54,314 bases of DNA from a virus. The position numbers were made by a program, and so were the translations under genes. Where the stretch lies: positions 1-54,314 of the IMG/VR virus record IMGVR_UViG_3300042868_004434; one strand, given 5' to 3'. Under the pieces are notes generated by a model that saw only the letters and a list, made by a program, of their open reading frames with translations, searched no databases and was not told where the DNA came from. Shown here one piece after another: positions 4,104-7,870 of the stretch; position 1 is the stretch's first letter; the number at the start of each line of letters is the position of its first letter.

Positions 4104-6524
4104 CTAGTAGTACGCGGCGCGTGCGCGCCTAAACAGTTGGGGTTCGTCCGGTTCGTCGGACGCAAGGCGTATTAAACCACCTTGGCGGATGCGCAGCAAT
4201 GCTTGACTCACCGTATCCACGATGTCATCGAACTCGCCATTCGGAAATTCGGCCACTTGGTCGATCACCTCTTGCGCCCACCGGGTCTCTGGGGCCCACA
4301 CCATGCCGGAGCTGAACATGTCCGCTACGGCGTTGACCCGCACTCGCTTGTCGTTGCCTCGGCTGGGCGTAAACTCGTGAATTGGTAAGCCCGTGGCCCG
4401 CATCTCCTGTATCAAGGGGGCTCCGGCGGCTTTCTTCTCAATCACCACCATGTCCGGCTCCCACTCTCGGTAGTACTCGAACGCAAACTTCTTGAGCTCG
4501 GGGAACTCCTTACGACCATACCAGCAGTCGAGTAGCATTATCTGATCTTGATTCTCTTCCTCGTTGAACCACACGCCCCATGTTGTTACTGCACTGGGGT
4601 CGGAGCTGTCATTTTTGCCGTGGGCGGTATCCCATGACTGCAGGATGATGTCGCATTTCGGAGGCTTGGCCCCGGCCCAGCGCCGCCACCATTCGCGTTT
4701 TATCAGTGCGCCCTCCTCGGAGGTGGGCTCTTGCATGTATTGGGCAGCCCAGAACTGCGGCGCCATGCCCGCTTTCTTCGCCATAAGTTGTTCTACTGGC
4801 CATTGTTCTGGCCAAAGGCTCTTGCCGGACGGCATTATCGCGGGGAAGCGTACCTCGTTCCAAGGCAAGCTGTCGGGGTTGTTCTCGGCCCACATCAACG
4901 CCCGTCCGATAGGGTCTTTCTTCCCCCAGCGCGTGTTATGGCTCACCACGCCGTTGGCTATGAAGTTCTCGGTACGCTCGACCTCCATGTCAAAAACAGG
5001 CTCGTACCCATCTTCGACAATCTCAACAATCGCATCTGGAATGGTATCGCACGTATCTTGCAGCGGCTTCAAGCACTTCTGGTGTTTTACCTCGCCCGAT
5101 AGCAAGGTTGCAGTCGTTACACAGGAGCCCTCTAACTTTGTTCGTGTCGTGACAGTGATCGACGTAGAGTTTTGGCGTTTGCCCTGCTCTTGAATTCTCT
5201 CTTGTTGGTAGTTGCCTACAGATTGCACAACAGCCCTCTTGGCTTTCGCACATAGCGTCGTAAGTTTCCGTAGAAATACCATACCGATATTTAAGGTGGC
5301 TTTCACGCTTTTGCGCATCTGTGAGACGGTACTTTCCTTCTCTCCACACTTTCTTGCCGTGGCAACTTTTGCACAGCCCTTTTGCAGAGACGGGTTCGCT
5401 ACAACCTTCCGTTGTGCATTCGACACCGCGCCACTTACCCCAATGCCCTGCGCCGCGCTGCCCGAGTCGCCCATCTGCTCGCAGTTTTCGTCCGTAGCAC
5501 AGCTTGCACAACCCCTTGGCTTTGACGGGTCGCAGGCAGCCTGCGGTTGCACAACCACTACTAGGCAATCCCCCACCTTTAGGTCTCGTACTCTCACCCA
5601 TGATCTGACTCCGTTTCGATCAACAAGAAAAGGATGTCTCTTGTTTGCACGGACGATTTTACCAGAAGTCGTTGTTATTTTGTAAACAAAATCGGAAGGA
5701 TGCTTAATCCAATTTGTTATGCGGGAGGTATTTATTATTCCGTTGTCATATGTAGCAACGGTGTCCCCTACTTGTATGTGCTGAATTTCTTTCTCAGTTT
5801 CGTCTGCCATCAACACGCGCGTTTCGGCTGTCATGCACCCAATCATGATGATCCGCCCGCCCGGCATCAAGCGCTGCAACGGGCCCACCTGCACATACTC
5901 CCACGCGGTAGCGAAGGCTTTGTCGGGGTCTCCCGCCAGTACGGCCTGCTCGGACACCAAGTCATCGGCAATCAGCAAGTGCGCGCCGCGCCCGGCCACC
6001 GAACCACCGATACCAACCGCAAGGTACATGCCGCCCTTGGTTGTCGTCCAGTCGCCCGACGCGCTCTTGTCGCGGCTCACCACGGTGTCAGGGAATATCT
6101 GGCGGTACACCTCGCTGTCGATCATGTTCCGTATCTTGCGCCCGAAGGTGGCGGACAAGTCTGCGGTGTGGGTGACCATCATGATCTGGTGGTTCGGGTG
6201 CTGCCCCAAATACCACGCTACGAACAGGTACGAGATCGTCTCAGATTTACCAAAGCGCGGGGCCATGCTGACGGTCAAGCGTAGCTCCTCCCCGGTGGCC
6301 ACCTTGTGCAGCAGTGGGCGCATGTGTTTGTGGTGGGGCCCGACCTTGAACTCCGGGTAAACACGTTTACAGAAAGCCAGAAAGTCCGTCTTGGCGTTGA
6401 GTATGGCCCGTTTGTCCTCCAGCGCCTCTAGGTCGGCTAGCAGCTGCGCCTTCTCTGCAGCGGGCATGGCGGGTAGGTTCGCCAGTAGCGCGGCTACGGC
6501 TTCGGGGGACAGGTCGTCAAGCAT
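4104..6524 (-). CDS. terL: Large terminase subunit (ATPase-nuclease) interrupted by an intein
   Basis: The primary product is 806 residues; after splicing the motor would be 505 residues. The Walker A-type loop is MAPRFGKSE (about 87-95) and Walker B is LLIADD (183-188). The conserved motif that follows in terminases (IIMIG/TRW) is split: residues 230-530 are an intein beginning with Cys230 and ending HN530, with Thr531 as the +1 nucleophile. The C-terminal RNase H-like nuclease keeps its acidic residues: Asp632 in SWDTAH, Glu696 in VVIEK, and Asp766/767/770 in FDDIVD. The protein cuts concatemeric DNA and pumps it through the portal. The start at 6524 overlaps the small terminase end by eight bases and has AAGGA six bases upstream. 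Because the intein sits in a catalytic motif, unspliced protein should be inactive. Residues about 308-501 are also read in another frame as an endonuclease gene. Confidence 0.95.
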   Translation of the reverse strand: MLDDLSPEAVAALLANLPAMPAAEKAQLLADLEALEDKRAILNAKTDFLAFCKRVYPEFKVGPHHKHMRPLLHKVATGEELRLTVSMAPRFGKSETISYLFVAWYLGQHPNHQIMMVTHTADLSATFGRKIRNMIDSEVYRQIFPDTVVSRDKSASGDWTTTKGGMYLAVGIGGSVAGRGAHLLIADDLVSEQAVLAGDPDKAFATAWEYVQVGPLQRLMPGGRIIMIGCMTAETRVLMADETEKEIQHIQVGDTVATYDNGIINTSRITNWIKHPSDFVYKITTTSGKIVRANKRHPFLVDRNGVRSWVRVRDLKVGDCLVVVVQPQAACDPSKPRGCASCATDENCEQMGDSGSAAQGIGVSGAVSNAQRKVVANPSLQKGCAKVATARKCGEKESTVSQMRKSVKATLNIGMVFLRKLTTLCAKAKRAVVQSVGNYQQERIQEQGKRQNSTSITVTTRTKLEGSCVTTATLLSGEVKHQKCLKPLQDTCDTIPDAIVEIVEDGYEPVFDMEVERTENFIANGVVSHNTRWGKKDPIGRALMWAENNPDSLPWNEVRFPAIMPSGKSLWPEQWPVEQLMAKKAGMAPQFWAAQYMQEPTSEEGALIKREWWRRWAGAKPPKCDIILQSWDTAHGKNDSSDPSAVTTWGVWFNEEENQDQIMLLDCWYGRKEFPELKKFAFEYYREWEPDMVVIEKKAAGAPLIQEMRATGLPIHEFTPSRGNDKRVRVNAVADMFSSGMVWAPETRWAQEVIDQVAEFPNGEFDDIVDTVSQALLRIRQGGLIRLASDEPDEPQLFRRARAAYY
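4935..5837 (-). other. Intein (about 301 aa) within the large terminase
   Basis: The intein runs from Cys230 to Asn530 of the terminase frame. The N-terminal Hint block is CMTAETRVLM...VGDTVATYDNG. A block-B-like region (GKIVRANKRHPFLVD) and the DLKVGDCLVVV strand close the first half. The C-terminal half has a block-F-like stretch (EPVFDMEVERTENFIANG) and block G VVSHN, followed by Thr as the first C-extein residue. All residues expected for Cys1-type splicing are visible, including Cys1, block-B His, penultimate His and terminal Asn. The roughly 170 residues between the two halves do not look like a folded domain (many Lys, Ser, Thr and Cys; no hydrophobic core). They coincide with the out-of-frame endonuclease gene at 5023-5601. 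This stretch remains free of stop codons, so a continuous precursor can be made. Confidence 0.92.
5023..5601 (-). CDS. Endonuclease VII-type HNH endonuclease, nested out of frame inside the intein
   Basis: A 192-residue protein is encoded on the same strand as the terminase but in a different frame: its codons lie two bases downstream of terminase codons. It has two tandem Cys-rich repeats (CATAGCLRPVKAKGLCKLC, about 17-35; CTTEGCSEPVSAKGLCKSC, about 62-80) that look like small zinc-binding units. These are followed by an endonuclease VII-like core: CAICRQ, LYVDHCHDT (catalytic Asp-His, near 148-151), VRGLLCNDCNLAIG and a C-terminal helix. ATG at 5601 has GGAG seven bases upstream, so independent translation is likely. 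The position argues for a homing endonuclease that mobilises the intein. Recombination (Holliday-junction) endonuclease activity is the alternative, since the fold is shared. The overlap reaches into the first Hint half of the intein and ends just before block F. Confidence 0.88.
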   Translation of the reverse strand: MGESTRPKGGGLPSSGCATAGCLRPVKAKGLCKLCYGRKLRADGRLGQRGAGHWGKWRGVECTTEGCSEPVSAKGLCKSCHGKKVWREGKYRLTDAQKRESHLKYRYGISTETYDAMCESQEGCCAICRQLPTRENSRAGQTPKLYVDHCHDTNKVRGLLCNDCNLAIGRGKTPEVLEAAARYVRYHSRCDC

Positions 6525-7240: not shown

Positions 7241-7870
7241 CTACTTTTTCCAATACGGGATGTATCGTTGCCAGTCTTCGGTGTCCCACCGCCTACACAG
7301 CATCTCGACACGGGCGTATTGTTTCCTTCCCAACGTTCGACGCATCTTTTCTTCGGGGCTCACGGTATTTCTTCTATTGTTGGACTGCTCCTTTCTTGTA
7401 GCCCATTTGCAATTATTGGGTTCGTAATTACCGTCATTGTCCACACGCTCTACCGTGGCCCCCTCAAACGGGGGCTCGCCCATGTCCGTCAGGAACTTTT
7501 CAAAGTCGTGCCAGCGCTCGCACACCTTTATGCCTCGGCCTCCGTAGCTACCAAAATGTGTATGCGTGTCTGCGTAGCATCTCGCTATCATCCCAGACCA
7601 GCGACTGTATATCTTTGCCTGCGGGTGTCCTTTAACGCTATATCCCTCCGAGTATTTCTGGGCTTTCTTTCCCAACCGGGTAGAGCGCGCGCAGCCACAG
7701 CTGGTGGTGTTTCCGCTCTTGAGGTGCGCTGCCCACGTAAAAAACTTTGTTCCGCATTCGCACAGGCACAGGCATCTTCGCCGGGGTACTTTCCCAACAG
7801 GTCGAACCATCCTTGTTCTAAGTACTTCTAATTTTTCAAAATTTTTTTGCAGTGTTACTGGCCTGACCAT
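7241..7870 (-). CDS. HNH/AP2-type homing endonuclease-like protein
   Basis: This 209-residue protein has a Cys-rich N-terminal part ([21 protein letters not shown], then TTSCGC, about 33-60) that probably binds zinc. The central region ([55 protein letters not shown], about 90-165) is a familiar stretch of phage-borne HNH-related endonucleases. Such proteins usually behave as selfish homing genes inserted between phage genes. It lies immediately upstream of the terminase genes, a usual landing place. It has its own promoter (7898-7925) and a strong AAGGAG seven bases before ATG at 7870. A role in DNA packaging is a less likely alternative, although HNH proteins next to terminases do take part in cos cleavage in some phages. 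Confidence 0.75.

Follow-up and report, generated by a model that had tools for sequence, protein, structure and literature searches.

The TerL terminase gene in the window (the whole stretch of viral DNA analysed, 54,314 nucleotides of IMG/VR record IMGVR_UViG_3300042868_004434) very probably hosts a homing element that consists of two overlapping genes, with a nuclease that is made separately from its intein and an inert intein linker that is spliced out. The nuclease gene is nested out of frame inside the intein. The features of the locus, all on the minus strand, are as follows:

4104-6524 (-): TerL open reading frame, 806 amino acids, internal stops absent
5838-6524 (-): TerL N-extein (ATPase part), ending in ..GGRIIMIG; assigned from the open reading frame and Terminase_6N, and joined to the C-extein in intein-free relatives
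5544-5837 (-): N-terminal Hint half, intein residues 1-98 (C1; block B N65..H68); assigned from PF14890/TIGR01445, pLDDT and alignment
5609-5612 (-): GGAG Shine-Dalgarno sequence, within the invariant Gly76 codon plus the next base; assigned from the sequence and the GGA excess in relatives
5599-5601 (-): ATG start of the nested gene, formed by the third base of codon 79 and the first two bases of invariant Trp80 (TGG); assigned from the base skew in relatives
5023-5601 (-): nested nuclease gene, 192 amino acids, with two zinc-finger-like modules and an endonuclease VII (His-Me finger) domain; assigned from profiles, AlphaFold and codon constraint
5064-5543 (-): filler in the intein frame (residues 99-258), linking the two Hint halves; stop-free, with no structure predicted
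4935-5063 (-): C-terminal Hint half, residues 259-301 (..NGVVSHN); assigned from TIGR01443 and PF14890, pLDDT about 80 or more
4104-4934 (-): TerL C-extein, starting TRWGKKDP, with the nuclease/RNase H-like domain; assigned from Terminase_6C and TIGR01630

Layout of the TerL intein and its nested nuclease gene

The intein (4935-5837) corresponds to TerL residues 230-530 and spans 301 amino acids, from C1 to N301, with the Thr of the TRW motif at the +1 position. It matches the Pfam Intein_splicing profile (PF14890) both within TerL (1.6e-18) and as the excised intein (1.1e-19), as well as TIGR01443 and TIGR01445. The residues expected of class 1 inteins (C1, N65xxH68, S299-H300-N301 and the +1 Thr) vary little or not at all among 19 relatives. 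Furthermore, the N-terminal Hint half is conserved across the 19-sequence alignment and modeled by AlphaFold with a pLDDT of about 90 or more, except for its last residues. Foldseek matched the confidently modeled Hint halves to DnaB mini-inteins (probability 1.00). These features define a complete class-1-type intein and predict protein splicing.

The residues between the Hint halves (99-258) had pLDDT values below 50 and almost no secondary structure, and the intein frame of this stretch returned no match to a nuclease profile. We considered a domain concealed in the middle of the intein frame and rejected it based on the low pLDDT, the lack of secondary structure and a sequence identity much lower than in the nuclease. 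The model indicates instead that the middle of the intein is unstructured filler.

The nested gene starts 923 nucleotides into the TerL frame (6524-5601) and is therefore read in the +2 (that is, -1) frame. The sequence bears out the coordinates in the initial annotation as well as its GGAG (5609-5612), located 7 nucleotides ahead of the ATG (5601-5599), and intein and endonuclease VII profiles match the two parts that it had distinguished. The nested reading frame matches Pfam Endonuclease_7 (5.9e-19) and the endonuclease VII family phrog_2914 (3.4e-30), and PF02945 was detected in 19 of 19 members. The predicted catalytic residues (D148, H149, H151 and N165) and zinc ligands (C125, C128, C161 and C164) are invariant in 19 diverse members. 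AlphaFold modeled the protein (pLDDT 79.9) as two zinc-finger-like modules followed by an endonuclease VII domain. Profile searches against the PDB retrieved T4 endonuclease VII (E 9e-8) and also Hpy99I. Foldseek searches with the model recovered the same two proteins only weakly (best E 0.01), so we base the family assignment on the sequence profiles. As previously annotated, the first codons of the nuclease share bases with the end of the first Hint half, beginning at codon 80. At its other end, the nested gene reaches into the second Hint half by about 10 codons, an overlap missing from that description, and stops at intein nucleotides 813-815.

Conservation and constraint in the two frames

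Relatives drawn from IMG/VR, GTDB contigs and phage records have the same organization. The nuclease occupied the same -1 frame in all 98 distinct sequences located within complete single-frame inteins, every one of these inteins was stop-free, and no in-frame fusion of an endonuclease VII-type nuclease to an intein was found among the relatives. The carriers include Mycobacterium phages (Phlyer, Vincenzo and phi1_186018), Gordonia phages (Angelicage and Vivi2) and many uncultivated phages, as well as bacterial contigs assigned to Mycolicibacterium, Bradyrhizobium, Anaerolineae and others. The extein junctions read almost throughout ..[IVM]x/C..HN/T[RW]W.., with the intein directly preceding the T[R/W]W of TerL, which suggests that this motif is a single homing site. 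The five public phage records examined annotate the TerL coding sequence alone and give the nested gene no coding sequence of its own; the Vincenzo TerL entry carries the description 'homing endonuclease in intein'. Hint halves in different frames were seen at a single locus (L179), which could reflect a frameshift, decay or an assembly error.

A single sequence with an indel at each border, as could result from assembly or sequencing frameshifts in an ordinary in-frame HNH intein, would mimic the picture in the window. However, the 98 concordant sequences come from contigs and isolate genomes, share the frame relation, keep both frames open and repeat the start codon and Shine-Dalgarno sequence. 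We rejected such an error, which has a vanishingly small probability. The concordance of the relatives indicates that the arrangement is a conserved means of carrying the nuclease of a mobile element and not a reading error. It also upholds the view in the initial annotation of a nuclease carried out of frame in an intein that looks competent for splicing, since both frames are open in every complete single-frame relative. That annotation would have been refuted by nested frames broken in inteins that persist; relatives with a complete single-frame intein show the opposite.

The two open frames were compared with chance by recoding the 151-codon nuclease core with synonymous codons at the frequencies found in the TerL exteins. 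At the locus in the window, the intein frame stayed open in 0.11% of the recodings, with 4.0 stops expected and 0 observed. Pooling 96 loci gave 0 intein-frame stops versus 229 expected, a contrast to be read with the descent of the loci in mind: because the relatives share ancestry, z-scores and summed probabilities exaggerate the significance and the product of the probabilities is not a significance level. T4 endonuclease VII and the free-standing phage HNH/endonuclease VII genes resemble the nested nuclease in their His-Me finger, Cys4 zinc site and catalytic residues but stand alone. Across the endonuclease domain, the frame equivalent to the intein's is open in 98 of 98 nested genes and in only 2 of 28 free-standing relatives, being closed in the other 26. 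The remaining third frame is closed in all 98 nested genes.

Substitutions also distinguish the two frames. Differences among aligned relatives at nuclease codon positions 1, 2 and 3 were 0.385, 0.357 and 0.624, respectively, and nuclease position 3 corresponds to position 2 in the intein frame. The concentration of differences at this position suggests that amino acid changes are tolerated in the intein frame and not in the nuclease frame. Averaged over all pairs, the nuclease frame was 50% identical and the intein frame 27%. Thus, the comparison between frames anticipated in the initial annotation places the constraint on the nuclease, and the alignments indicate that the intein frame between the Hint halves is selected only to lack stops.

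These patterns also bear on whether the nested frame is the relic of a decaying homing endonuclease in an intein on its way to becoming a mini-intein. Endonuclease decay is the usual fate in inteins as part of the homing cycle, and the nuclease of one relative on a partial contig (L019) contains a stop. Yet the catalytic and zinc residues are all invariant in the 19 diverse members and the nuclease frame is constrained, which makes a relic highly improbable. We rejected a dead nuclease on the same two grounds, the invariant active site and the constrained frame.

Nuclease synthesis and homing

The start of the nested gene occupies the same position in 92 of the 96 relatives examined, where the invariant Trp80 codon supplies its TG. 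The first base of the start comes from the free wobble position of codon 79, at which 79 of the 92 relatives have A, 13 have G and none has C or T; extein usage predicts about 30 with A. Similarly, the Gly76 codon that forms the core of the Shine-Dalgarno sequence is GGA in 58 of 90 relatives versus 11.3 expected. These biases indicate that the start codon and Shine-Dalgarno sequence are selected within the Hint coding sequence. The start lies elsewhere in four relatives and none was found in L208. Loci with a missing or upstream-shifted start comprise L208, L126/L127, L173 and L183.

Programmed -1 ribosomal frameshifting that fuses the nuclease to the N-terminal Hint half, rather than yielding a separate protein, would agree with the direction of the nuclease frame, which is always -1, as in the commonest type of programmed frameshift. 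However, a canonical X XXY YYZ heptamer is present in a usable stretch at only 9 of 92 loci, and what is selected is the start codon (A or G in the proportions above) and the Shine-Dalgarno sequence. Furthermore, the nuclease frame of one relative (L003) opens exactly at the ATG, immediately after a stop, and nested nucleases of other TerL inteins have a +1 offset. We regard frameshifting as very unlikely. The selected start and Shine-Dalgarno sequence, the rarity of slippery heptamers and the frame opening in L003 favor internal initiation as the best-supported route to the nuclease, as deduced from sequence. The proposal in the initial annotation of a separately made nuclease thereby gains the support of a selected start codon and Shine-Dalgarno sequence.

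The distribution of the element is sporadic. Most TerL relatives of the window lack the intein and have a clean G/TRW junction, providing dozens of empty sites. Intein-free relatives of this kind had been suggested as a check in the initial annotation, and one of those found (L043) has exteins 99% identical to the TerL of the window (DNA 91-92%), with 118 synonymous and 5 nonsynonymous codon differences. The insertion in a conserved motif and these intein-free host alleles are as expected of an intein. The DNA flanking the site is identical at 1366 of 1400 positions between a locus with the intein (L096) and one with an empty site (L102). The TerL tree shows 11 changes between presence and absence of the intein, of which at least 9 fall on well supported branches. 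Some inteins are 75-80% identical although their host TerLs share 20-30%; for example, L146 and L153 are 78% identical in the Hint and 82% in the nuclease but only 26% in the exteins. Extein and intein distances correlate (Spearman 0.56-0.59), which points to descent that is partly vertical. Presence or absence at one site together with spread across divergent TerLs is the pattern expected of homing, with the nuclease as the putative source of cleavage.

A nuclease of this family could also serve the phage directly. Branched DNA is cleared for packaging by T4 endonuclease VII, and terminases are known to partner with HNH proteins. A packaging-associated resolvase made alongside TerL, with the intein as a convenient location and homing of minor importance, would also explain the long-term purifying selection on the nuclease frame. 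However, close relatives with an intact TerL lack the nuclease, which is therefore dispensable, the insertion site is invariant, and highly similar elements reside in TerLs only 20-30% identical. A resolvase role as the main function is thus unlikely.

From the two frames and their conservation, the selected start and Shine-Dalgarno sequence, the empty sites and the sporadic distribution, we infer splicing, internal initiation, cleavage at the TRW site and homing as the steps of a site-specific homing element whose TerL mRNA would be read twice. Ribosomes in the TerL frame would make a precursor with the Hint halves linked by about 160 unstructured residues; the Hint domain would then fold, excise itself and ligate TerL at the TRW motif. 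Other ribosomes would initiate internally at the ATG (or GTG) overlapping the Trp80 codon, aided by the GGA(G) of Gly76, and translate the -1 frame into a free-standing zinc-finger/endonuclease VII protein. This nuclease would cut the empty TRW site of intein-free TerL alleles, and repair would copy the whole intein across. Selection would maintain the nuclease sequence and keep the intein frame between the Hint halves merely free of stops.

Other TerL inteins and known systems

We also identified nested nucleases, unrelated to the one in the window, in inteins at other sites of related TerLs. Inteins at the DDL/C site (DDL/C..THN/C) of L073 (2251-3306), L224, L226-L230 and L235 contain an AP2-like HNH nuclease in the +1 frame (phrog_3377, 1.3e-39 in L073), and those of L021 (906-1907), L239, L240 and L241 contain a classical HNH nuclease, also in +1. 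The TerL of L021 has inteins at both the DDL and TRW sites, each with its own out-of-frame nuclease. At a third site (..DDFVD/C..VHN/CVSM), the intein of L224 (4117-5040) contains an HNH_3 nuclease (1.1e-17) in the +2 frame. The Walker A site of L226, L230 and L239 is occupied by an additional intein with LAGLIDADG-like motifs in frame, as read by eye from the translation. The N-terminal Hint half of the second-site intein returned no match among named phages. The differences in nuclease family, site and frame suggest several independent origins. The initial annotation was correct about this locus and underestimated its generality, for the element family is widespread and other TerL sites have other out-of-frame HNH nucleases.

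Seven inteins of more distant named phages, used as controls (Gordonia portal, Caulobacter, two from Corynebacterium, Acinetobacter, Vibrio and Staphylococcus), lacked a nested nuclease and appeared conventional in-frame, degenerate or mini-inteins, so the nested arrangement is not universal. Within phage terminases, 'nested-gene inteins' are probably general, with separate overlapping out-of-frame HNH/His-Me nucleases acquired several times independently, LAGLIDADG domains kept in frame and filler that is only stop-free.

The window also encodes a free-standing HNH endonuclease (7241-7870, minus strand; phrog_374, 1.2e-53) shortly upstream of TerL. It belongs to a family group (phrog_3377/8790/2081) that also includes the nuclease nested out of frame in the second-site TerL inteins of relatives.

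Canonical in-frame LAGLIDADG/HNH inteins have the same Hint catalytic residues, place the nuclease between blocks B and F and, in mycobacteriophage examples, share the TerL host gene. In these, nuclease and Hint form one polypeptide, whereas the TerL intein described here consists of two overlapping genes, with a constant -1 frame (98/98) and an unstructured intein-frame middle. Dassa et al. (2009) reportedly described fractured genes in which a free-standing gene for a homing nuclease separates the two parts of a split intein. Such elements also have the nuclease as a separate gene between Hint halves, but the host gene is in two parts and splicing occurs in trans; TerL here is one open frame of 806 codons. 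In Vibrio phage vB_VmeM-32 (L264), we observed a fractured RecA/UvsX gene whose split Hint halves flank a gene for a SegG-like homing nuclease. Kelley et al. (2016; PMC5050341) describe TerL inteins of mycobacteriophages in which LAGLIDADG domains lie in frame; out-of-frame nucleases did not come up in a word search of their text.

The closest parallel is the ShiLan domain, a sporadic insertion in a phage DNA methylase that contains an out-of-frame HNH nuclease with zinc fingers (Arsenault et al., 2025; PMC11855218). Both are mobile, sporadic insertions that leave the host frame open and encode an HNH-type zinc-finger nuclease in another frame. However, ShiLan has no Hint or splicing domain, its filler remains in the host protein and no ribosome binding site is detectable, whereas in TerL a complete intein with a full Hint domain encloses the nuclease and the Shine-Dalgarno sequence is selected. 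For overlapping frames in actinobacteriophages, PMC11855218 cites a 2025 preprint on the 'non-canonical architecture' of actinophage inteins. The preprint may already describe part of the arrangement and its survey may include phages with this TerL intein; the sequence tests presented here and the occurrence outside actinophages may go further.

Besides in-frame fusion and fractured genes, a second gene laid over an inert linker would be a third way for an intein to carry a homing nuclease. It would free the nuclease from Hint folding and excision and give it its own control of expression. Nested nucleases escape surveys of inteins and HNH nucleases that consider a single frame. The relatives also provide about a hundred natural cases of overlapping coding where constraint falls on one frame and the second has only to stay open, a yardstick for methods that detect overlapping genes. 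Furthermore, mobilization of an intein by a free nuclease becomes directly testable.
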